Assembly: GCA_017694415.1 (NCBI GenBank)
Contig: JADIMW010000068.1
Location: forward strand, 1 to 61,565
DNA: 61,565 nucleotides
Direction: 5' to 3'
DNA from: Candidatus Caccoplasma merdipullorum
GTDB lineage: Bacteria; Bacteroidota; Bacteroidia; Bacteroidales; G3-4614
In this document: one piece after another, positions 1,154 to 14,886 of the stretch
Layout of the letters: each line of letters opens with the position of its first letter
Numbering within the stretch: the first letter of the stretch is position 1
Position numbers and translations under genes: made by a program
Notes under the pieces: model-generated
Seen by the model: the letters and a program-made list of their open reading frames with translations, nothing else
Database searches by the model: none
What the model was told of the DNA's origin: nothing

Positions 1154-1227
1154 CGGGGCGTAGCGCAGTCCGGTAGCGCGCCTGCTTTGGGAGCAGGTGG
1201 TCGCAGGTTCGAATCCTGTCGCCCCGA
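1154..1227 (+). tRNA. tRNA-Pro (anticodon TGG)
   Basis: CGGGGCG acceptor paired with CGCCCCG; CCTGC-TTTGGGA-GCAGG anticodon arm; GGTTCGAATCC T-arm. Confidence 0.95.
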
Positions 1228-1240
1228 CAAAAGCAATAAA

Positions 1241-1448: not shown

Positions 1449-1646
1449 CTAAAGCTGCGCTCTCCAGAAACGTAGTATTTCGCTGCCGAGATAAAATCTT
1501 CGTGCTGATTCTCTGCGGAAGCCACATTTTATATAGCCCGCGTTCGTATATCGCCGTAATGTACTTCGGTTAATACCTAAGATCGCCGATGCCTCGCCTA
1601 TGGAATATCGTCCCGTCAGGCTTACTTGTGGTTCTATTGCCGTCAT
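1449..1646 (-). CDS. Small helix-turn-helix (MerR/excisionase-like) DNA-binding protein
   Basis: MTAIEPQVSLTGRYSIGEASAILGINRSTLRRYTNAGYIKCGFRRESARRFYLGSEILRFWRAQL; HTH_17-like. Confidence 0.7.
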   Translation of the reverse strand: MTAIEPQVSLTGRYSIGEASAILGINRSTLRRYTNAGYIKCGFRRESARRFYLGSEILRFWRAQL

Positions 1647-2529: not shown

Positions 2530-4738
2530 TTATTTACTATCTTTGATGTTGAAAGTTCTGTTCAAATCCGAAATATGCGTCGTTTTTGTATGATTTGCGT
2601 CGGTGAGAATAGGACTTTTTATTTTCCAGATTGTTAATGCGGCCATTCTTTCTGCCGTCCGCTTTTTGACTGTCTCGAATACGTTCGGGAAAAAACTTTT
2701 GCCAAATATTTCTTCCAATTCGGCCCGGTCTTTCGCAAGTGTTTCGGGAGATACCGGCTTTATTCCTGTCAAATGAGAGAAAGGACTCATTTGTTCCATG
2801 GTAAACCACCCTCGGCTCGCCGTTCTCGTCCACCACTTTCGACGCATCAGCTTGCAGGATTGAAACTAAACGCCTATCTTTGTACTCGGCAGAAGACGGT
2901 ACAGGTGCGCCCCCCGTTGATGTAAAGCCATTGGCAATCTCATAGAGATTGCCTTTTTCTATTTCAGTAAGGCTATGGTCATAATACCTCTTGCCTTGCT
3001 TTACCCCAATTGTTACTTTGACTGTGTAATCGACACCACCTATTTTCAGTCCACACACATAGTATCGGTAGCTGTCATACTTGCCGTTACCTTTCTCATT
3101 AGGGAGTTCATCTATAAATATGGCGTTCTCTATGAGCTGTGGCGTAACCGCAAGCGATTTCAGGTGTGCTTCGTTATCCATGCGGGAACGGATGTCTTCT
3201 GTGTTTTTTTCGGTTTCCGGGTTTGGATTCTCAAAGTTTTTTATTATATTTGATGCAGTTTTAAGTTCTTGAGAGGTTATTTCCTGCTGAACATTGGGTG
3301 ATGCTGAGGAGAACCACTCAAGAGCTTTCTTTTTATCAACCCACTGTAAACTATTGTTCTCATTTATGGGGCGAATTATGTTCTCTATACGCCGACCATG
3401 AACGGTAGTTACATCGTTGACCTCAATATAACGTCCTCCATCTTGTATTTCCGATGATAAATCAAACGCAACAAACACATTTCTTCCAATCTTGTCTTTC
3501 ATTTCTGACAGGATCGACAGCGATTTGTCATCCTTTTTAAACACGAATATAGGCTCTGAAATTTTTTGCGGCATATTGATTATTGAAGAAACTTCTACAT
3601 TGTGTTTTTTGTTTGCGCCCTTATTTACAACTCTTTGTCGCATCACTATCGGCAAATTTGGCAAGAATATGCTCATAACTCCATTTGGTAGGCCAAGGTG
3701 AAACATCTCGTTTTTACTCATTTTTCCTTGCTGATAACGTTCCAACTCCTCGTTAAATCGCCTATTGACCTCTTCGAGGTCGTTATCCATGCGGAAGCGT
3801 ATGTCTGCATTCTCCGACGAAAACGAGCCTGTGTTGTCCGTAGCAGACTTGATTATATTACCTAAATTTTCTACTAACCCCAATTTCGTAGCTGGAGTTA
3901 AAAGTATTTCTCCGTCAGCACCTCTATTTCCAGAATATACACCAACAACAATATTATAAGGCTGTTCTCCATAGAACAATTCGTAGTATTTGTCAATATT
4001 TGTATTTAGTTCAGATACTCTACCTACTACAGAAATACCCTGTTCAAATATCTGGTCTCTATAATTATAAGACCTTCCCCTTTCGTTTATGTCGCCATAT
4101 CTATATGCAACAACAATAGAAGGTATTATTCCTTTTCTAATTGAATTTATAAGTATTTCAATATAATCTTTTTGAGAAACTATACTTTCAAGTAAGTTGT
4201 ATGCTTTTTCTTCTTGATAGAATATAGATTCATTATCCCATTCCATCCCAGTTTCATTCTCAATTTCTGAAATCTTATTTACATAATTATTAGCCTTATT
4301 TATTGAAATATCAAGTCTTGTTATGGGATTTCTTTCTTTTATGTTTAAGTATAATCCATCTATCACCCTCGGCTCGCCGTTCTCATCCACAACTTTTGAT
4401 GAATTTGTTTGCAGAAGAGAAAGCAAACGCTTATCTTTGACAGCAGAAACAGCATCTTCCTTGTTGGCAAACCCCGTATTTATGGGGTCAATACTTTCAA
4501 GGAGGCTGTTTTTTTCTATCTCGGTCAGTGCATGGTCGTAATATGCTTCACCGTCTTTCACGCCAACAACCAGCTTGGCGGTATAGTCCACACTGCCCAT
4601 GCGCAATCCCAACACGTAGTAGCGGTAGCTGTCGAAGCCCGTCTTTTCCTTGGTGTTGGCCTCTTCGGTGATGAACACGGCATTTCCTATCATTTGCGGG
4701 ATGTAGGCCGCAGATTTGAGGTGCGCTTCGCTATCCAT
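2530..4738 (-). pseudogene. Polyvalent-protein fragment: LPD3-like, unknown domain, MuF-C-like, LPD3-like, truncated ART-like stub
   Basis: ORF 2537..4738 contains two LPD3-like units (MD[SN]EAHLKS...YYDH[AS]LTEIEK), MuF-C-like (GLPNGVMSIFLPNLPIVMRQRVV), and ends with VVDENGEPRVVYHGTNESFLSFD, then loses frame to ORF 2530..2847. Confidence 0.65.
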
Positions 4739-4775: not shown

Positions 4776-4897
4776 AAATTTGGATTCTCAAAAGTTTTTG
4801 CTTATATATTGTAGAATATAGGATGCGGCTCGGCATAATCAAATTTGAAAACTCTGTTTTCATTTGTTTCTGCTCTCGCCTTTCGCTATATTTGCAA
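4776..4897 (-). repeat. Module-boundary repeat, copy R2b
   Basis: Same ~120 bp as R2a with small indels. Confidence 0.85.
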
Positions 4898-7800
4898 TGG
4901 AATCCAAGTCAAGATATTCAACCTCAGCGAGAGTCTTTCGCTGTTTGTTTATCAACTCTTGGATTTTTTCTTTGTCGGCATACAATAATTTATCTTGGTT
5001 AATCCAGTTCAACCATTCTGCATTATTCTTTGGAAATATACCTCGTATATCGGAAACTATTAACTCTTTACGTTTTTGATTAAAATGTACTCCAACAAGA
5101 TAATTTTTTCCGTTTTGTTCTATTCCCAATATTAGATTTTGAGATTTTTGAGGATTTCCATACTTAAATATGGCAATAGGTTTTTGTATTGTATAAATAA
5201 GGTTTCTTAAATCCGAAATATTAAACGGGTGTTTTGCTGCTTCCGAATGTTCTTTTAGCATCTTTGAGGACATTTCTATCGGCAGGTCGGGAATGCCTGT
5301 ACTGCGCAATATTTTTCCCGGCCGTCCCAACTTGTATATGTGCCCTTGTGGCAGGGTTCCGCTTATCTGCTGCTCCAACTCCTCGTTGAATCTTCTATTG
5401 ACCTCTTCGAGGTCGTTATCCATGCGGAAACGGATGTCGATCTCGCGTGAGGCATCGAGTACTTTTTTCCATTTTTCGTAGGATTTTGTTTCTTTTTCTA
5501 TTACCTTTGCAAGCGGAAGGGCATCCTCTCTTGAAGATGTGAGGCCTCCCAGATCATTAGAACGGCTTAATGCGTCAGCATTGAGCCGTTCTACGTTTGT
5601 AACCTCGTAGGAGTATTGTTTATTACCCTCTACTGCAGACCTGCTTTCTTTCATTGTGGTTTTAACTCTATACACAATGCCGTCTATTTTAATAGCACCA
5701 TAAAAACGATGAATTAATGTATTGGCATTATAACCGTTCTCTGGTCTGCGTTCTTCATCTGTTCCTTTCTTGTAATCAGGATGTTCTTCTACTTCTATGC
5801 TATTGGCGATAACCTCGTCTAATCGGTTAAGAACTGCAATATGTATGCCTATATTGGTGCTTTTATCTGTTGCTTTTTTGCTAACAGACTTTTCTATACT
5901 TTCTCCACTAATAGTATAGTCAAACGCTGTTCCATAGTTGTCATAATACAAAGTCTTGCCTTGATATTTCTTTCTTGCATCTTCTTCGGCTTGTTTTATG
6001 GCCTCTACGACAGAACCTTTATACTTGTGTTTTGGTATGTTTATCACTTTTAGATTTTCTTCGGCAAGGTTAGGCATTACTGTGCCTTTGTTTTCTACGG
6101 CCCTGTTTACTCTTTCCGAAAATGTTTTGTTGTTGTCGCCGAGCCGGTACAACGATTCGGCCTCGGATTTTATGTGTGTTTCCTCGGCGGCTTTGCGTAA
6201 CCTGGCCAGCAGTGCGCTATTGTCTAACACCTTAACGGCATCGGCTTCCTGCATGTTTTTGTAAGATTGAGCCAGCAGGTGGCGTATGTCGGCATCGTTT
6301 ATGTCGAGGTCTATGCCGATACTGCGCAGAAACTCCCTTATTGCCGATATTATCCGCTGCGGGATGCTCTGCCGTACTCCTCCCTCGGCAAGGCGGGCCA
6401 TATATTCGTCCGCTATTATGCGACGCAGTTCTGCCTCTGCGGTATTCGGATATATCTTTTTGTATGTATCTTCATATGCTTTCTGCCGTTTTTTCGGCAT
6501 GGACCGGTAAACGGCATCGCAGAGTGCCCCGAAAGATTCCTCCCCGAGCAGGGCCCGCAACCCTTTGTGTGCAACTGCCTCGTGCAGGATTGTGGCTTTT
6601 ACGTCCTCCGCCGTTGAATGCATGGAGAGGTTTATGTATACTTTTCCGTTGCCGGGTGTATACCAGCCTTTTGCCCGCATGCGCCGAATGGCTTCCTGCG
6701 GGGTCTTGCCTTGCAGGTCCTCTTCGGGTATGTCTTTCAGGTCGGAGACAAGCACAATGTCCGGAGAGGCGGCAAGTTCTGACCGCAGCTCTCTTGCTGC
6801 CTTGCTTACCACGGCCTTTCTCTCTGCCTTTCGCTTTTCTACTGCCTTGGCTACGTTGTCGAGATACTCCTTGCCGAATATCCTGTCTATCTTCTCCCGC
6901 TCCTTTGCCCGGATTTCGGCAAGTTCTTCTTCCGTCATGTCGATAATATCCCTGCTCCCTGCTTCCTCTCCTGTACGATGCACGGGCGGCTCTTGTACGT
7001 TTGAGGATTCTTTGCTATATTTGACTGTTAAATTAGGAGCAGGGCTGTTTGGGGAACTCACCTCATAGGAATTCCGCTTTGACGGTAGATACAGTTCTGC
7101 TCCGTTTCTTATCTTATTTAAAAGATTATTATTCGTTTTTATGTGGACAGAACTGATATAGTTTTCTAATTCTCCGTCTTTATTTACCACTGTTACATTA
7201 TAAGTCTCTGTTCCATCGTACTTTTTGTACAGTTTTACGTACAAGCGAGAAGCATCGGTGTCTTTTATAACAAAGTCGGGATTTTCCAATGTAGCCCGTA
7301 TTGTTCCCGATACATTTTTTCTACTGTTCTTTATTATCTTGTTGTACGTCTCGCGTCTTATCTGAACAAATTCCCCTAATATGGTTCTGACAGGTGAACG
7401 ATATTCTACAATGAATTCCGATATATTTTCTATTTTTGGGGGCAAAGTTTCTTCTGTGCCTTTATTTAATATTTTCCGAAGCACTTTTTCAGCTTCTTTG
7501 CCCGACAACCATTGTCTGTCTTTTTCCGGTATATGTTCTTTTAATTGTTTGTCCGAATACTCCAAAAAAGCATCTCTGTACAATGCAATGTTGCCTGTCT
7601 CTTCATCGACACGTTCCTGTATAACATCAAAAAGATTATCCAAATCTTTTCCGAAAGTTTCCAATTCTTCCTTTGTCGGATATACAAAACCTCTCAATGC
7701 TTGAGGTGTTTTTTTAAACTCCTCGTATGTCATAAGTCCTTTCTGTTCTTTTCCTTTGTGCAGGTTAAATTCGGAGTCAAAAAGTTGATATATTTCGTAT

Positions 7801-10800
7801 TGCATACGTGCATATCTTTCCTGCGCATCTCCTGTTCCTTCGGTCAAAAAGTGGTTATATGCGTTATGCTGCGATAATTGTTTTGCAACCCATTCCTCAA
7901 ATACCCGGGCTGTTTCTTCTTCTATCGCTCCCCAATAAGTACCTCTTTTTCGTGAGCGGGAATGATAGTCTGATTTTTTGATATTGTCAACAATCTGGTT
8001 AAAAGCATCGCGCATCGCCGAGCGTAACTTAATTTTCTTGTTTGCCGTGGCAAATCCTGCCGGCACATCAAACTGCCTGGCAAAATAATTGTCCAGTGCA
8101 TGCCACCACTCGTGCGCAAGCGCCCCAACTCCTCTTGTCTTTGTAAGATTAATAACGACTTCTTTTGTTTCGTAATGCGCATTTGCCTTTCCGCTACCGC
8201 GCGAACCGAAAGCTATACCCAACTCTCCATTAAGGCTTAACGCTCGCGGGGATACATTTAATATGCGAGATAGGTCCATGAAGGAATCGTAAGCATTATT
8301 AAGCGCAGCTTGTCTATCTTCTTGATTGGTCCAGTTGCCAAACTGTACTCCTCTAAAACCAAATTTTGTTGCAAACTCTTCGGCAGACACATTTTTACCT
8401 TGTCTGTAATCTTCTCCTATTCTTGTATTTATATTTCCGGCAAAATAAACAAACCTTTGTCTCCTCTCTTTAACCTCTTTGGCTTTCTTTTCCCAATCGT
8501 CTTTGTTCTTTTCCAATAAAGACAATGCTTCTTCCTTTGTTTCGATACCTTCTGCAAAATATAACGGCATGGTATCAAAAGGATTATTTTTGGATGCGCT
8601 ATCAGATATTATAATACCGTATTTAAATTTCTTATTTTCATAATCATAATATTTTATTATTTCGAGCAACCCTTTTTTATTGTCTTTTGTTTCTGCGTTT
8701 TTCTGTGCAATAGCTTCGTTTGCAGCTTCATTCAGTTTTTGATAGTCATCTTTAAAAGACGCTTCTGCTGATTCTTTACTATCGTATTCTATTCCCAGTT
8801 CTAAATGTTCTCCTGTTATAGGATTGGTAAAAACAGCTTCATACCTTTTATAATAACCATTATGTGTTTTGTCCTCAACAGGCTCTGATACATCTGCTTT
8901 ATTATTTTCTTTAGTTATCTTCTCCCTGTACGCTTCTGCCTCTTCTTTGGTATCAAATTTTAATATTTTTAGTGGCGATTTCCGAGCATCTGGACTTTCA
9001 AACACAAGCCAACCGTCTGATATAAATATAGGTTCTCTCCCTATGTAATCAAAAGTTTCGCGAGGATGTTCTGAAACTTCTATATCATTGTATAGTTTTG
9101 TAAGATATGTTATCTGGCTAACAACGTTATCAAAAGTCTTTGCCTTCTGTAAATAATATAGTTTTTCTCCGTTTGGTGTTATTAAATAATAATAATCATT
9201 AGATGTATTTGGAATAGCGGCAACAACAGGGAATGATATATCATACCTGTCTCCTAAGTTTATTTGCCTCAATACTTCGTAAAATAAAGCTATCTGATTT
9301 ATAGGATAAGCGGTGCCGTTAAATGTTTTCCCGGGATTCCATTGTTCCAACTTTTGCTGGTATGCTTTTACTTGCTCCTCTCCATAAGTCCTTACAGATA
9401 AGGCACGTTTAATTATCGCATCACGTTCTGTTTCTTCTGCGTTAAAGAGTTCTTGAAGTATTTGTATCCCTGAAAATGCCTCTTCTGCCCAACTCTCAAC
9501 TCCGGTTTTTCCTGTCTCAAGTTTTGCTATCCGGTCTTTTCTTGTCCCTGCTTTTGGCTTCTTACGCGACAAAGTTGCAGCCATAACTGCTTCTGCAAAA
9601 TATACGTCTTTTTCTCGTAATGCGCCCGATTCAAGGGCTTTTTTCAAGTCGGGACGCTTAAATGCTTTAGAAAACGGGAGTGATATAAGGCTCTGCAAGG
9701 TGGTATTTTCCACGGTTCTTGCAATATCCCTCAATATGTCTTTACGCGCTCCAGCTATTTGTTCTCCGTAATCTTCTATACGTCCGCCAGGCGTTTCCGT
9801 TGTCTGCTCTGCCGCTGCCGGCTGTGCTGTGTCGGCTTCCGGTGTATTTGCTGCATTGACTTTTGAAAGTTCCGATGCAAGTAGCGCATCTCGCTCCTGC
9901 ATTGCAGCATCGTAGTCCTCTATTGTGGGTACTGCGTCTAAATCTGCTTTTGCATCAGCATTATAATTTGTTATTGTTTCCTGCGGTTCACCCACGTAGT
10001 ACATTGTGGCGACATAGAGAGGAACTTTATTTGGGTGTTCTTCCGCCCATGCTGCAAATTCTTCGGGTGCATATTGTGGATTGAAAGGTATTTTGTTTGC
10101 AGGTTTAAAGCCGAACATGGAATACATGTTGGCTAAATTCTTATCTCCATCTACTACATAACAGTCAAGTTTGTTACCACCTAATGCAACAGCCATAGGT
10201 ATTAATTTCTGCATACGGTAATCGCCTTTTACCGCACTGAACAGAGAGACAATATCGCCCGTAGGGGTTATGGCTACACCTGAAAGCCCGTCGTCTGTTA
10301 TCAATAATGTACAGTCTGCGTACTCATCTACGCTGTGCACATCTACCATCCACCCGTTGGGATTGCTTTTCTTTGCCTCGCTTATTGCTGCATGGAATTC
10401 TTGAGGTGTAGATAAGCGAACCTTTTGTGAGGTGTGCTTTATCCCTTTATTCGTTAGGAGTTCGCTTATCTGTTGGTCTGTTTTCTCTATCTTTACATCA
10501 TGGCCAATTCTGCTGCTTCTGCCGGTGTTTGAATATTTGGATTCCAGTCCGGGCGTTCCCAATACTTCCGGTTTACTAATACTGACCTCACCTCTATTTC
10601 CGTCCACCTTTCGTCGCAGCATTTCGCTATCTCCTTGCGAAACTCTGCTATCCACTGCTGCTGCTCCGGCGTCAGTTTGGACATCATCTCTTTGTTCTCC
10701 TTCACCAACTCCTCTATTGTCATCTCCAACGAGTTCTTTCCTTTCATAACTTGTTTCTTTTTCTGTAAAGTTATTATTATCTGAAGTATCCTGCAAGTTT

Positions 10801-13586
10801 TTAGCGGTGTTTTTCACGCCTCTTTCTCTTGGTCTTCTGCGTCCTCCTTTTCTTTCTCCTCTTTCTCTTTCTTGTCCTCCTGTGTCTGCTGCTCCTCTAT
10901 TTCCTGCATCATCTCCACGAACGCTTTGTATACCAGATTTAACTTTTGAGTTTCCCAGTCTACTTTGGGTGTCTGCTGCTGCTTGTCCGGTGTTTCCATA
11001 TTCTTCTATTAATTCGTTTAATATTTCTTTTTTTGTTTTTATTCTACCCGCAAATATATCAATTTGTCCGGATGCTGCATGCTCTGCTGCCGTATTATAT
11101 TTATTAACAAACGATTTAAAGTTGTTCTGACCTTTAGTCAATGCAACTGCAATTATTTGTGTTGCAGTGTTGTATATGTCTGCCGGGTTTGCATCAAACA
11201 AATTAGTCTGCGATATGTAGTCTGTAATCGGCATATTTGCTCTATCGGCTGCATAAATAAATTCAATAGCCTTGTTAATTTCATCAGACAGTGAGTAATT
11301 CTCTCCATTTTGTCCTTTTTTCAGCCTACTGTTATTCAAAAGCGGCATTATTGATTTTATTATCGCTGCTCTTATATTCTTCATCTGGGAGATAAGACGT
11401 ACACTCTGTTCGTTTAATATCTTGCCCACAAGCAATGTTTCGAAAAATTCTTTTCCTTGCGCTGACAGATTGTTCCCATCCATTAATTCGGCCATTTCGT
11501 TGCTGTTTATTACACCGTCTGCCTGCAATATTCGCATTATCTGTGCTATTGTTGCTTTGTCGGAGTATATTTCCGATAACGTATCTTTTTCATCTATCAG
11601 AGCAGCTATTTTTTCTATTGTGGTATCCTTTACTGTTTTACCGGCTTTTACTGCTTTTTCTGTCGGCGATATTGTCTTTTTATCTTCGGCATTGAATTTT
11701 GCAAATGTCTCGGCGTTTAACGGTACGTTTTCTGATACTTCCAATACCAGCCGGGGATGCTGATACCCGGATATTTGCTCTGCCGTAAAACCGTACCTCC
11801 CGGCATGGTATTTCAGATAAGACAAATATTCCGTATCGGTCCCTTGGCTTGCGGCAATCTGTCCGGACATGGTACGTCCATTTCCGGATAATACTATTCC
11901 TTGATTTGTTACTATGACAGGTGTCTGTATTGCGCGTGCATCATAATTTGCTGCGTTCTGCTCTACAATAGTCTGTGCGGACTTATCTGCCTGATAGTCT
12001 CTGTCGTTTATTGTATTGCCGTTCTCGTCGGTCGGGAATCCTTCTGATTTTTGATAACCATTGTTTACGTCGTGGCTTGGCGTTATGGCGTCTGCTTCTA
12101 CAATGACGTAACGACCGTATATTCTTTCTCCGTTGGGCAATATGTATGTATCGGTATTGCCGTATGTACGATTGGATGTTTGATACTTGCCCGTTATATT
12201 TTCTCCGACTTGTTGTGTAACTTGTGGAGTCTTTTTTTGAGATGCACCAATCCGTCTTGCCTGCTGCGCCGTCCAGTAATCATAAGCCTTTTGTGCGGCA
12301 GCTTTCTCGGCAGATATAGCCTGTTGCTCGGCTTTGCGCTTTGCAAACTCTGTTGACTTGGGTTTTGCCTTTTCTGCTTTTTCTGTGGCTTTCTTCGCCT
12401 CTTTTATCTTGTCGGCAATGAAAGCGTCGGCGGTGTCGCCCAGCTCAGCTATGGCCGCGTCAAACTGCTCTTCGGTCATTTCGTACCATAGAGGCTCTCC
12501 GGCTTCATCGACAGGATACTGCTGTTGCTCTTCCTGCTCATTTTTTTCTCTTCTCGCTCTTGTGATTGGATTTTTTTCGCTACCTTTGGTGTAAGAAGAA
12601 TCGGTTTGTGGTACATCCGTACTCCCGATAACAGGGACAGATACATTCTCTTGCGATTTACGAGTATTATTGTCCGACGTAGGAACAAGGTCCGGTCGCC
12701 CGTCATTTTGGGTCTCGATTAAGTACCTTTCAGAATCGAGGGACAATTTATTGTTGAGATGCAGGATTATTCCATTCTGCATCTCTTTTCTCGCAACCTT
12801 TCTGTCAACTTCATGACTACTTATTGACACTTCCATACCGTCTTTCCTAACAGTAACTGTCTCAAAGTGTACATAACGACTTCCGTCAGATTTGATAAAA
12901 GTCTTTAGAAACAGATATTTAGTATTTCTTTCCGCGTTGGGAGACTGAGCATCCTTTTCTATAATAACATCGGGATTAGATAGGGTTGGTGCAACCATGC
13001 CAAAAGATTTCTCTCGTCCTTTAGCAAAGAATTTCGTAATTTGATTGTCTCCCATTTTAACTTGTCCGACAGGAGTTGTTATTGAATTGTTTTCGCCAAA
13101 TATCTCTGCCCAATTTTCAGGAGTAAGCGACAATTCTGGCGCGACTTCGGCTGTTTCTTCCATTTGTGAGAGTAAATCTGCAACTCCTTCGTTGGTTAGA
13201 CGGATACCATTTTTACGTATTCCTCTACCCTGTTCGGCTGTCTGCTCTGTTGTATTTACGTCTTGCCGGTTGAGCAATGTCTTGACGTTATTCCAATAGT
13301 CGTATTCTTGTTGTGCCGCCGTTTGTTCTGCCCTTATTGCTTCTCTCTCGGCCTTTATATCCGACAGAATTGCTATTTTTATTATCCGCTTCTTGTATAT
13401 CTGGGGATTCTTTGCTATCTTTGGCATGTACCATTTGGGATACAGTTCTGTTTGGGGCAATATTGGTATCGGGATTCCCTTGTGCCCGCAAAGTATCATC
13501 AGCAACCGATTGCTGATTCTGCACTTCGGAAGCAGACCAAACGGTTTTTTTTTCTTGTGAATATCTTTTACGAAATACACCTGCAC
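4860..13586 (-). CDS. Giant polyvalent protein: PBECR-like nuclease, DdrB/ParB-like, GNAT-like, LPD1/5-like + zincin (HEWWH), PBECR-like, zincin (HEAVAH), LPD3-like, MuF-C-like
   Basis: 2908-aa ORF with GNGRTMSGQ (DdrB/ParB-like), FGFRGVQFGNWTNQEDRQ...LAHEWWHALDN, ILHEAVAHKGLRALLGEE, IHRFYGAIKIDGIVYRVKTTMKES (LPD3-like), LGRPGKILRSTGIPDLPIEMS (MuF-C-like). The first ~75 aa overlap the upstream ORF and are probably not native. Confidence 0.8.
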   Translation of the reverse strand: MQVYFVKDIHKKKKPFGLLPKCRISNRLLMILCGHKGIPIPILPQTELYPKWYMPKIAKNPQIYKKRIIKIAILSDIKAEREAIRAEQTAAQQEYDYWNNVKTLLNRQDVNTTEQTAEQGRGIRKNGIRLTNEGVADLLSQMEETAEVAPELSLTPENWAEIFGENNSITTPVGQVKMGDNQITKFFAKGREKSFGMVAPTLSNPDVIIEKDAQSPNAERNTKYLFLKTFIKSDGSRYVHFETVTVRKDGMEVSISSHEVDRKVARKEMQNGIILHLNNKLSLDSERYLIETQNDGRPDLVPTSDNNTRKSQENVSVPVIGSTDVPQTDSSYTKGSEKNPITRARREKNEQEEQQQYPVDEAGEPLWYEMTEEQFDAAIAELGDTADAFIADKIKEAKKATEKAEKAKPKSTEFAKRKAEQQAISAEKAAAQKAYDYWTAQQARRIGASQKKTPQVTQQVGENITGKYQTSNRTYGNTDTYILPNGERIYGRYVIVEADAITPSHDVNNGYQKSEGFPTDENGNTINDRDYQADKSAQTIVEQNAANYDARAIQTPVIVTNQGIVLSGNGRTMSGQIAASQGTDTEYLSYLKYHAGRYGFTAEQISGYQHPRLVLEVSENVPLNAETFAKFNAEDKKTISPTEKAVKAGKTVKDTTIEKIAALIDEKDTLSEIYSDKATIAQIMRILQADGVINSNEMAELMDGNNLSAQGKEFFETLLVGKILNEQSVRLISQMKNIRAAIIKSIMPLLNNSRLKKGQNGENYSLSDEINKAIEFIYAADRANMPITDYISQTNLFDANPADIYNTATQIIAVALTKGQNNFKSFVNKYNTAAEHAASGQIDIFAGRIKTKKEILNELIEEYGNTGQAAADTQSRLGNSKVKSGIQSVRGDDAGNRGAADTGGQERERGERKGGRRRPRERGVKNTAKNLQDTSDNNNFTEKETSYERKELVGDDNRGVGEGEQRDDVQTDAGAAAVDSRVSQGDSEMLRRKVDGNRGEVSISKPEVLGTPGLESKYSNTGRSSRIGHDVKIEKTDQQISELLTNKGIKHTSQKVRLSTPQEFHAAISEAKKSNPNGWMVDVHSVDEYADCTLLITDDGLSGVAITPTGDIVSLFSAVKGDYRMQKLIPMAVALGGNKLDCYVVDGDKNLANMYSMFGFKPANKIPFNPQYAPEEFAAWAEEHPNKVPLYVATMYYVGEPQETITNYNADAKADLDAVPTIEDYDAAMQERDALLASELSKVNAANTPEADTAQPAAAEQTTETPGGRIEDYGEQIAGARKDILRDIARTVENTTLQSLISLPFSKAFKRPDLKKALESGALREKDVYFAEAVMAATLSRKKPKAGTRKDRIAKLETGKTGVESWAEEAFSGIQILQELFNAEETERDAIIKRALSVRTYGEEQVKAYQQKLEQWNPGKTFNGTAYPINQIALFYEVLRQINLGDRYDISFPVVAAIPNTSNDYYYLITPNGEKLYYLQKAKTFDNVVSQITYLTKLYNDIEVSEHPRETFDYIGREPIFISDGWLVFESPDARKSPLKILKFDTKEEAEAYREKITKENNKADVSEPVEDKTHNGYYKRYEAVFTNPITGEHLELGIEYDSKESAEASFKDDYQKLNEAANEAIAQKNAETKDNKKGLLEIIKYYDYENKKFKYGIIISDSASKNNPFDTMPLYFAEGIETKEEALSLLEKNKDDWEKKAKEVKERRQRFVYFAGNINTRIGEDYRQGKNVSAEEFATKFGFRGVQFGNWTNQEDRQAALNNAYDSFMDLSRILNVSPRALSLNGELGIAFGSRGSGKANAHYETKEVVINLTKTRGVGALAHEWWHALDNYFARQFDVPAGFATANKKIKLRSAMRDAFNQIVDNIKKSDYHSRSRKRGTYWGAIEEETARVFEEWVAKQLSQHNAYNHFLTEGTGDAQERYARMQYEIYQLFDSEFNLHKGKEQKGLMTYEEFKKTPQALRGFVYPTKEELETFGKDLDNLFDVIQERVDEETGNIALYRDAFLEYSDKQLKEHIPEKDRQWLSGKEAEKVLRKILNKGTEETLPPKIENISEFIVEYRSPVRTILGEFVQIRRETYNKIIKNSRKNVSGTIRATLENPDFVIKDTDASRLYVKLYKKYDGTETYNVTVVNKDGELENYISSVHIKTNNNLLNKIRNGAELYLPSKRNSYEVSSPNSPAPNLTVKYSKESSNVQEPPVHRTGEEAGSRDIIDMTEEELAEIRAKEREKIDRIFGKEYLDNVAKAVEKRKAERKAVVSKAARELRSELAASPDIVLVSDLKDIPEEDLQGKTPQEAIRRMRAKGWYTPGNGKVYINLSMHSTAEDVKATILHEAVAHKGLRALLGEESFGALCDAVYRSMPKKRQKAYEDTYKKIYPNTAEAELRRIIADEYMARLAEGGVRQSIPQRIISAIREFLRSIGIDLDINDADIRHLLAQSYKNMQEADAVKVLDNSALLARLRKAAEETHIKSEAESLYRLGDNNKTFSERVNRAVENKGTVMPNLAEENLKVINIPKHKYKGSVVEAIKQAEEDARKKYQGKTLYYDNYGTAFDYTISGESIEKSVSKKATDKSTNIGIHIAVLNRLDEVIANSIEVEEHPDYKKGTDEERRPENGYNANTLIHRFYGAIKIDGIVYRVKTTMKESRSAVEGNKQYSYEVTNVERLNADALSRSNDLGGLTSSREDALPLAKVIEKETKSYEKWKKVLDASREIDIRFRMDNDLEEVNRRFNEELEQQISGTLPQGHIYKLGRPGKILRSTGIPDLPIEMSSKMLKEHSEAAKHPFNISDLRNLIYTIQKPIAIFKYGNPQKSQNLILGIEQNGKNYLVGVHFNQKRKELIVSDIRGIFPKNNAEWLNWINQDKLLYADKEKIQELINKQRKTLAEVEYLDLDSIANIAKGESRNK
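4885..4985 (-). repeat. MuF-C tail repeat R1d, in its native position at the C-terminus of the giant ORF
   Basis: YADKEKIQELINKQRKTLAEVEYLDLDSIANIAKGE. Confidence 0.85.
10493..10747 (-). CDS. Alternate-frame ORF inside the giant ORF, coiled-coil-like
   Basis: MKGKNSLEMTIEELVKENKEMMSKLTPEQQQWIAEFRKEIAKCCDERW...; same frame as the 10814-10999 ORF, different from the 2908-aa ORF. Confidence 0.5.
   Translation of the reverse strand: MKGKNSLEMTIEELVKENKEMMSKLTPEQQQWIAEFRKEIAKCCDERWTEIEVRSVLVNRKYWERPDWNPNIQTPAEAAELAMM
10814..10999 (-). CDS. Alternate-frame small acidic protein (METPDKQQ family, copy 1)
   Basis: METPDKQQQTPKVDWETQKLNLVYKAFVEMMQEIEEQQTQEDKKEKEEKEKEDAEDQEKEA, conserved with copy 2 at 14643-14792. 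Confidence 0.6.
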   Translation of the reverse strand: METPDKQQQTPKVDWETQKLNLVYKAFVEMMQEIEEQQTQEDKKEKEEKEKEDAEDQEKEA

Positions 13587-14886
13587 TGTTTACGTTCCAA
13601 TAACTGCCGTCTTGAGATAACTCAACAAATAATGTGTTGTTATATTTGTCTGATACTTCTATTATATATGTTTTATTACTATTTCTAACTTTTCCTTCTT
13701 TTATGTCAGTATAATTTTGGGCTACATTTTCCACAAATTCTATAATACTCTTAAATCCAGATTGTTTTATTTGTTGTCCATGTCTTGATTCAATATGTAA
13801 TAATCCATAATCTTTTGTTCCTTCGCTTAACTTTATTGGTGCAGGTATAAGTCCTGTTTCTTCATTTATCTCTCCGAATATGGTTGTTCCGTCAGAAGCT
13901 AAAACAAACGGACACCCGTTTTCATCTAATTCGTTAGATAGTCGATAGGGTATTCCCGTTTGCTTTTGTTGGGATTCGTGAATTGACAAATTGCTATTTT
14001 TATTATCCGCTTCTTGTATATCTGGGGATTCTTTACTATCTTTGGAGTTGAAAGACATGACGAACGGAAGAGCAGAAAGGGCTGCTGCCGCATCTTTTGA
14101 TGTCAGTATGAGGAATTGCCCGCCCTCGCGTTCGGCTTGTCTTTTTAGTTTTTCAATTCCTTTAGCATCTATTCTTCTCCAACCTACAATTTCTACATTA
14201 TCTTTACCCTTGTTTACTTCTAATACAGTAATTGAATTCTTATCAGCAGTTTGTACTGCTATCCAATAATTAGGTCGTTTTATAGGTTGTGTTCGCCCGA
14301 TAAAAGTTGTTATATATAAAGATTTCTTCAATATATCCCTACTTTGCTCAGGCGTTAATTCCGGATGTGCTATTCTGTTCTTTTCAAATATATTCTTCTT
14401 TATAATTATAGGTTTACTATCAGCACCTATAGCATTGGAAATATTCTGCTGTAATTGTGGTAATTCAACGTTGCGAGTAGGAGTAATAAAGTCCTCATTT
14501 GTCAGCTCGTTTAAGTCTTCCAACCTGTCTATTACTAATTTTCCATTAGAATCCACAGGATTGCCTTGACTATCATAACTTCCCGTATTTAATCTTTTAC
14601 TTTCTTTAACTGTACTTCTGTATAGATCTACTCTTTCTTGTTCTATACTTCGTCCTCCTTGTCCTCCTTGTCCTCCGGTGTCTGTTCCTCTATTTCCTGC
14701 ATCATCTGGCGAAAGGCCATTGCCAACATCTGGGCTTTCTGGGTTTTCTCGTCCGGTTTGGGTGTCAGCTGCTGTTTGTCCGGTGTTTCCATAGGTTCCT
14801 GTTATTTCTTTTAATATTTCTTCTTTTATCTTTCCGTATATGGTTGTTCCGTCAGAAGCTAAAAACAAACGGACGCCCGTTTTCAT
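13288..14886 (-). CDS. Polyvalent-protein N-terminal part with two PBECR-like nuclease modules
   Basis: KPIIIKKNIFEKNRIAHPELTPEQSRDILKKSLY...YWIAVQT and LLHIESRHGQQIKQSGFKSIIEFVENVAQNYTDIKEG...YIIEVSD. Confidence 0.65.
   Translation of the reverse strand: MKTGVRLFLASDGTTIYGKIKEEILKEITGTYGNTGQTAADTQTGRENPESPDVGNGLSPDDAGNRGTDTGGQGGQGGRSIEQERVDLYRSTVKESKRLNTGSYDSQGNPVDSNGKLVIDRLEDLNELTNEDFITPTRNVELPQLQQNISNAIGADSKPIIIKKNIFEKNRIAHPELTPEQSRDILKKSLYITTFIGRTQPIKRPNYWIAVQTADKNSITVLEVNKGKDNVEIVGWRRIDAKGIEKLKRQAEREGGQFLILTSKDAAAALSALPFVMSFNSKDSKESPDIQEADNKNSNLSIHESQQKQTGIPYRLSNELDENGCPFVLASDGTTIFGEINEETGLIPAPIKLSEGTKDYGLLHIESRHGQQIKQSGFKSIIEFVENVAQNYTDIKEGKVRNSNKTYIIEVSDKYNNTLFVELSQDGSYWNVNSAGVFRKRYSQEKKTVWSASEVQNQQSVADDTLRAQGNPDTNIAPNRTVSQMVHAKDSKESPDIQEADNKNSNSVGYKGRERSNKGRTNGGTTRIRLLE
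13372..13430 (-). repeat. Linker repeat encoding KDSKESPDIQEADNKNSN, copy 1
   Basis: ATTGCTATTTTTATTATCCGCTTCTTGTATATCTGGGGATTCTTT[GA]CTATCTTTGG, also near 13990-14046. Confidence 0.9.
13872..13990 (-). repeat. ~118-bp direct repeat encoding LSIHESQQKQTGIPYRLSNELDENGCPFVLASDGTTIFG, copy 1
   Basis: Near-identical to 14828-14951. Confidence 0.9.
13990..14046 (-). repeat. Linker repeat encoding KDSKESPDIQEADNKNSN, copy 2
   Basis: See 13372-13430. Confidence 0.9.
14643..14792 (-). CDS. Alternate-frame small acidic protein (METPDKQQ family, copy 2)
   Basis: Reverse translation METPDKQQLTPKPDEKTQKAQMLAMAFRQMMQEIEEQTPEDKEDKEDEV*; below the ORF-track length cutoff. Confidence 0.55.
   Translation of the reverse strand: METPDKQQLTPKPDEKTQKAQMLAMAFRQMMQEIEEQTPEDKEDKEDEV

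Follow-up and report, generated by a model that had tools for sequence, protein, structure and literature searches.

Probable small genes nested in the +1 frame of polyvalent-protein linkers in Bacteroidales phage-type elements

The 61,565-nucleotide contig JADIMW010000068.1 of Candidatus Caccoplasma merdipullorum (Bacteroidales; assembly GCA_017694415.1), hereafter the window, encodes on its minus strand a giant polyvalent protein (PVP) and, beside it, a shorter open reading frame (ORF) with a polyvalent module, and each of these contains a small ATG-initiated ORF beginning METPDKQQ (copies A and B; Table 1). Comparative analysis of substitutions and codon usage indicates that these are very probably genuine small genes under selection, nested in the +1 frame of PVP linkers while the long frame is kept open across them. 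The arrangement is general, which went unseen in an earlier note on this DNA: several unrelated families of nested small genes occupy linkers of Bacteroidales-type phage PVPs. The positions that the note gave for the two ORFs are exact, the peptides it quoted for both frames are correct and the long ORF is open on the same strand at both sites, so that each small ORF lies wholly within a longer one, in another frame of the same strand. Its interpretation, that the segments are dual coding or else that the small gene is the real one and the linker a by-product, is supported, and the answer falls between these options: both frames are kept, but residue constraint is found in the small frame alone.

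Asymmetric constraint is apparent between the two copies in the window. The two align gaplessly over their first 37 codons, and here the rate of differences is 0.633 where a change is silent in the small frame alone, compared with 0.225 where it is silent in the long frame alone and 0.206 where it is nonsynonymous in both, an approximately threefold separation of the first class from the last (P = 0.0008, Fisher). The ratio of nonsynonymous to synonymous rates (dN/dS) over the whole ORF is 0.30 in the small frame and 0.99 in the long frame for this one pair. The contrast that the note had drawn in the middle of the segment also holds: among 28 differences in 49 bp, the residue is kept in 6 of 16 alternate-frame codons versus 1 of 15 in the long frame, and within this divergent stretch small-frame similarity exceeds expectation (P = 0.0018) while long-frame similarity is no better than chance.

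A third copy (C) lies in another genome of the same genus (G007), where it follows ddrB-ParB inside an open giant ORF. This was the only match to METPDKQQ-like proteins, for which a search in Bacteroidales had been proposed in the note: one further copy was gained, and none was detected beyond the genus in 394 genomes of the order, the genome_contigs collection, viral contigs or phages, so that the family numbers three known copies, spread over two genomes of a single genus. Two genomes of the order, G348 and G254, gave weak matches (E about 0.01 per genome) that lie within long open frames and were judged fortuitous, and DNA searches of phages and plasmids with the segment gave short chance matches only. 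The core is identical in A and C, and B deviates in the middle; 5' of the ATG, C resembles B, and 3' of the segment A, B and C each join different sequence. These differing flanks therefore place the METPDKQ segment at a recombining module boundary. Comparison of dN/dS by frame between the long ORFs of the window and G007 was uninformative, as A and C do not differ in the core and recombination has made the alignment a patchwork.

Homologous linkers of PVPs in IMG/VR phage loci, in G007 and in a second congeneric genome (G001) house further nested families. G001 carries a different polyvalent ORF with gene-like +1 ORFs after ddrB-ParB (MDNSEAMYWLAI...) and before an N6-methylase (MDYKEMMQFAPK...). 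A methylase search recovered 21 IMG/VR loci, and all 20 that include upstream sequence have an ATG-initiated +1 ORF of 65-71 codons in the pre-methylase linker with the long frame open; these ORFs fall into three families (MDY, KYTY and LDAYR). A search that used the small proteins as queries, and so took no account of the long frame, returned 20 loci, some of them on contigs from the methylase search. In every case the small gene occupied the +1 frame of a giant ORF that was open (up to 3800 codons), with no stand-alone version. A survey of 79,126 long-frame codons yielded 316 alternative ORFs of at least 40 amino acids, 299 of them in the +1 frame; the codon score is positive in 43, all but one of which are +1, and most of the gene-like ORFs belong to recurrent linker families.

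Several features of individual families were also observed. The MDNSEAM nested ORF at the ddrB-ParB linker (L053-L056 and L059-L062) is unusually long, reaching 129 codons with the long frame open throughout, and another family, of about 104-108 amino acids, M(E/A)QKYY(V/A)AEKGS(W/L)HLSIT..., sits in a linker further along these giant ORFs (L053 at 6735, L054 at 11224, L066 at 10449). Nested proteins of G001, L030, L037 and L039 differ in their N-terminal halves and have the C-terminus DP(L/M)DAYR in common, which suggests exchange within nested genes. In a polyvalent locus near a contig end of G007 (C13, L020, around 201520), the open frame of the methylase match is only 284 amino acids long, with one TAA, yet the MDY-type nested ORF upstream is intact.

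Selection in these other families follows the pattern of copies A and B. A four-class count over 14 pairs, not all phylogenetically independent, gives dN/dS of 0.38 (95% interval 0.31-0.44) for the small frame and 1.14 (1.00-1.39) for the long frame in the linker. The methylase domain of the same loci, used as a control, shows the opposite (0.17 in the long frame, 0.92 in a mock +1 frame), and the method therefore does not create the small-frame signal. Differences in the compared pairs are commonest at small-frame third positions and nearly always rarest at second positions, which are the third positions of the long frame; ten disjoint pairs give 125, 100 and 226 differences at the first, second and third small-frame positions (third versus second, P = 2e-12). 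The closest pairs have small-frame dN/dS of 0.07-0.35 and are equal in length, so alignment through the small protein does not bias them. Motifs such as APKxCQPT are conserved in the small frame where the long frame has diverged. The A/B comparison, the 14 pairs and the methylase control thus show that the protein encoded by the small frame is under purifying selection. Of the two outcomes that the note had said would count against its claim, frequent alternate-frame stops were not seen in homologues, and per-frame dN/dS in homologous loci places the constraint in the small frame and not in the long one.

The near-neutral long frame of the linkers (dN/dS of 1.14) might alternatively mean that the small genes are real and that the linker long frame arises mechanically as a by-product, each flanking module being produced as a protein of its own. 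Site B, where the long frame is a displaced, truncated fragment with a frame-broken remnant of another module upstream of its ATG, would be in keeping with this. We nevertheless regard separate modules as very improbable because all 20 loci found with the small proteins have a long frame that runs open through the nested gene, in ORFs of up to 3800 codons, with recognisable modules in frame on either side of the linker, and because such openness, given the small protein, has a chance probability of 0.011 at A and 0.002 at B, and arose in 0 of 5000 trials for a further candidate (P0003, described below).

Sequence around the nested starts bears on how the small frame would be reached. Among 31 distinct nested starts, A makes up 54% of upstream bases versus 31.5% for other +1 ATGs, and is found at positions -3, -6, -12 and -13 in 84, 61, 87 and 94% of the nested starts versus 39, 33, 38 and 29% of the others; enrichment at each of the four positions stays significant with one representative per lineage. 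In Flavobacterium johnsoniae, the same four upstream positions have been reported to act positively on initiation (PMC6847099). An initiation signal proper to the nested genes, the A-rich signature of Bacteroidota, is thereby seen as a group enrichment, with a weak context at copy B. In four of four families tested, small-frame identity climbs at the Met (for example from 0.16 upstream to 0.54 downstream). Programmed frameshifting, in which ribosomes would quit the long frame at the linker to give PVP forms ending in small-frame sequence, is common in phages and would account for the constant frame relation (+1 in 42 of 43 gene-like alternative ORFs), but that constancy is uninformative because +1 dominates alternative ORFs generally. 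Conservation does not extend upstream of the ATG toward a shift site (slippery motifs were not searched), and the ddrB-linker family has small-frame stops just 5' of its ATG. The A-rich start context and the conservation from Met onwards therefore favour internal initiation, and we consider frameshifting very unlikely.

Several observations weigh against the view that the METPDKQQ ORFs are selected nested genes. Their openness is expected by chance, as synonymous shuffles of the long ORFs retain an equally long ATG ORF 14% of the time for A, 28% for B and 16% for C, and about 1.9 alternative ATG ORFs of at least 49 amino acids are expected in the 2908-amino-acid ORF under the same shuffling. 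At the start of copy B, neither -3 nor -6 is A. For METPDKQ itself the selection test amounts to one informative pair, given three copies in two genomes and the identity of the A and C cores. The proteins have no detectable homology to the other nested families, including MDNSEAM and MDY (hhalign), and the general result therefore backs METPDKQ by analogy of position and pattern. Nested proteins have no match at or near curated cut-offs in Pfam, PHROGs or NCBIfam, which suggest no function for them, and tblastn with two nested proteins against a phage collection and two against a plasmid collection returned no annotated record.

The unremarkable openness, together with the restriction of METPDKQ to one genus, is what would be expected if linkers rich in Gly, Gln, Asp and Asn automatically gave open Glu/Lys/Gln-rich peptides in the +1 frame, with no small gene present. 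Codon usage argues otherwise. A codon score trained on 25 other genes of the window gives the small frame 0.37 (A), 0.50 (B) and 0.33 (C), compared with a gene mean of 0.24, and these values exceed a shuffle null that already has the linker composition (P = 0.003, 0.043 and <0.004, respectively); the other chance alternative ORFs of at least 44 amino acids in the same three long ORFs all score negatively except P0003 (0.17). In A/B as in the 14 other pairs, moreover, it is the small frame that substitutions spare rather than the long one, with the methylase control reversed, and small-frame motifs survive long-frame divergence. A compositional by-product is accordingly very improbable, and a chance origin, which the initial openness test had suggested, was dropped after the substitution and codon tests. 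It is more improbable still that the small genes are fossils that once lay between separate module genes and have been decaying since read-through in another frame fused the modules, as this would account for nesting at module boundaries but not for purifying selection in the closest pairs or for the absence of a stand-alone version among the 20 loci found with the small proteins; fusion is a possible origin of the nested arrangement, whereas decay does not fit.

Candidate P0003, downstream of copy A, may be another nested gene, with weaker support than A and B. Its codon score is gene-like (P = 0.013). Synonymous shuffling leaves it open at its own position 0.3% of the time, but in 20% of shuffles gives an ORF of that length somewhere. 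The product is predicted to be helical (predicted local distance difference test score (pLDDT) of 63); no homologues were found, and a fold search of the model against the PDB gave no match.

The giant ORF contains six Pfam polyvalent-type domains above cut-offs, that is, several disparate domains in one polypeptide, as expected of a PVP, and the linker carrying copy A is downstream of its ddrB-ParB module. A tRNA-Pro gene (1154-1228, plus strand) and a 65-amino-acid MerR/HTH_17 excisionase-like gene (1449-1646, minus strand) adjoin the polyvalent locus and look like the remnant of an element integrated near the tRNA. No complete element was delineated at the window locus, and relatives are found on IMG/VR viral contigs. 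A 733-amino-acid ORF (2537-4738, minus strand) has MuF_C, LPD3 and a weak ART-PolyVal match, and, taken with the repeated fragments, it resembles an array of polyvalent modules that have been displaced.

Table 1 Features of the polyvalent locus in the window (coordinates on the 61,565-nucleotide contig).
Feature	Coordinates	Strand	Description
Nested small gene (probable), copy A	10814..10999	-	METPDKQQQTPKVDWETQKLNLVYKAFVEMMQEIEEQQTQEDKKEKEEKEKEDAEDQEKEA; 61 aa (amino acids), isoelectric point (pI) 4.4; +1 frame of long ORF
Nested small gene (probable), copy B	14643..14792	-	METPDKQQLTPKPDEKTQKAQMLAMAFRQMMQEIEEQTPEDKEDKEDEV; 49 aa, pI 4.3; +1 frame of 532-aa ORF
A-rich stretch 5' of copy A start codon	11000..11019	-	12 A in 20 bases; -3 and -6 both A
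A-rich stretch 5' of copy B start codon	14793..14812	-	12 A in 20 bases; neither -3 nor -6 is A
Giant PVP ORF	4860..13586	-	2908 aa; PBECR2, ddrB-ParB, LPD5, LPD1, LPD3, MuF_C
ORF with LPD13, host of copy B	13288..14886	-	532 aa; apparently displaced polyvalent module joined to truncated upstream fragment
ddrB-ParB domain	11745..12134	-	copy A in linker downstream of module
LPD13 domain	14134..14547	-	residues 114-251 of 532-aa ORF; downstream of copy B
Candidate nested gene P0003	10493..10747	-	MKGKNSLEMTIEELVKENKEMMSK..., 84 aa; same +1 frame, downstream of copy A; MKGKNSLEM...

Phage genes nested in other genes are known from lambda, where Rz1 lies within Rz on the same strand in another frame, as the small genes do here; the present ones have no lysis or lipoprotein features seen in sequence, and their hosts are multidomain proteins of the injected type. 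The hosts resemble polyvalent proteins, as described by Iyer et al. (2017, PMC5512222) from phages and conjugative elements, in their hallmark modules (ddrB-ParB, PBECR2, MuF_C, LPD1, LPD3, LPD5 and LPD13, with Kinase-PolyVal, InPase, N6_Mtase and LPD38 in relatives). They differ in that the nested genes form an extra coding layer; the text of that paper covered by a term search contains neither 'overlap' nor 'linker' and no passage on overlapping genes. Overprinted viral genes, such as those for the paramyxovirus C proteins within the N-terminal part of P, likewise place a second frame over a tolerant stretch of a larger protein (PMC3934983, PMC8227390), but here the design is repeated in Bacteroidales DNA phage-type elements, with varied families per linker and several linkers per giant gene. 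Polyvalent proteins and viral overprinting are known, and nested genes in PVP linkers appear to be new: no description of them was found in the literature searched, which leaves out most subscription papers.

We propose that the small gene would most likely be translated from its own internal ATG on the PVP mRNA, as the start context and the conservation from Met suggest, and would hence be co-expressed with the PVP. The long frame would stay open so that flanking modules remain joined, with linker residues nearly free to vary and thus leaving room for a second gene. METPDKQ proteins are acidic (pI 4.2-4.4), and copy A is predicted to form one 46-residue helix (pLDDT of 83); the product could be a short acidic helical accessory protein that serves the PVP or adjacent modules as a chaperone, as an inhibitor or as a partner acting early, and a co-expressed accessory or inhibitor of the PVP is our best, conjectural guess. 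Immunity proteins and antitoxins offer a likeness in that a small acidic product stands beside modules that include nuclease-type domains. METPDKQ, however, adjoins ddrB-ParB in A and C but LPD13 in B, and PBECR2 falls mostly in a gap of the G007 alignment, yet G007 retains METPDKQ. The constant partnership expected of an immunity protein is thus absent, and the different module neighbours disfavour a dedicated immunity protein for one toxin module.

More broadly, disordered PVP linkers in Bacteroidales mobile elements probably constitute a systematic second coding layer, in which families in the +1 frame, with starts of their own, would be swapped at module boundaries and encode accessories of injected effectors. 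Standard annotation usually drops ORFs nested in larger ones and, if this second layer is real, may miss nested linker genes. Linkers commonly dismissed as filler in giant proteins of phages and mobile elements would then encode second, selected proteins, and as overlapping genes the two frames are a clean example of asymmetric constraint. Concrete families are available for study (METPDKQ, MDNSEAM, MDY, KYTY, LDAYR and MEQKYYV), and the idea that PVPs may have co-encoded partners protecting or assisting the producing cell becomes testable.

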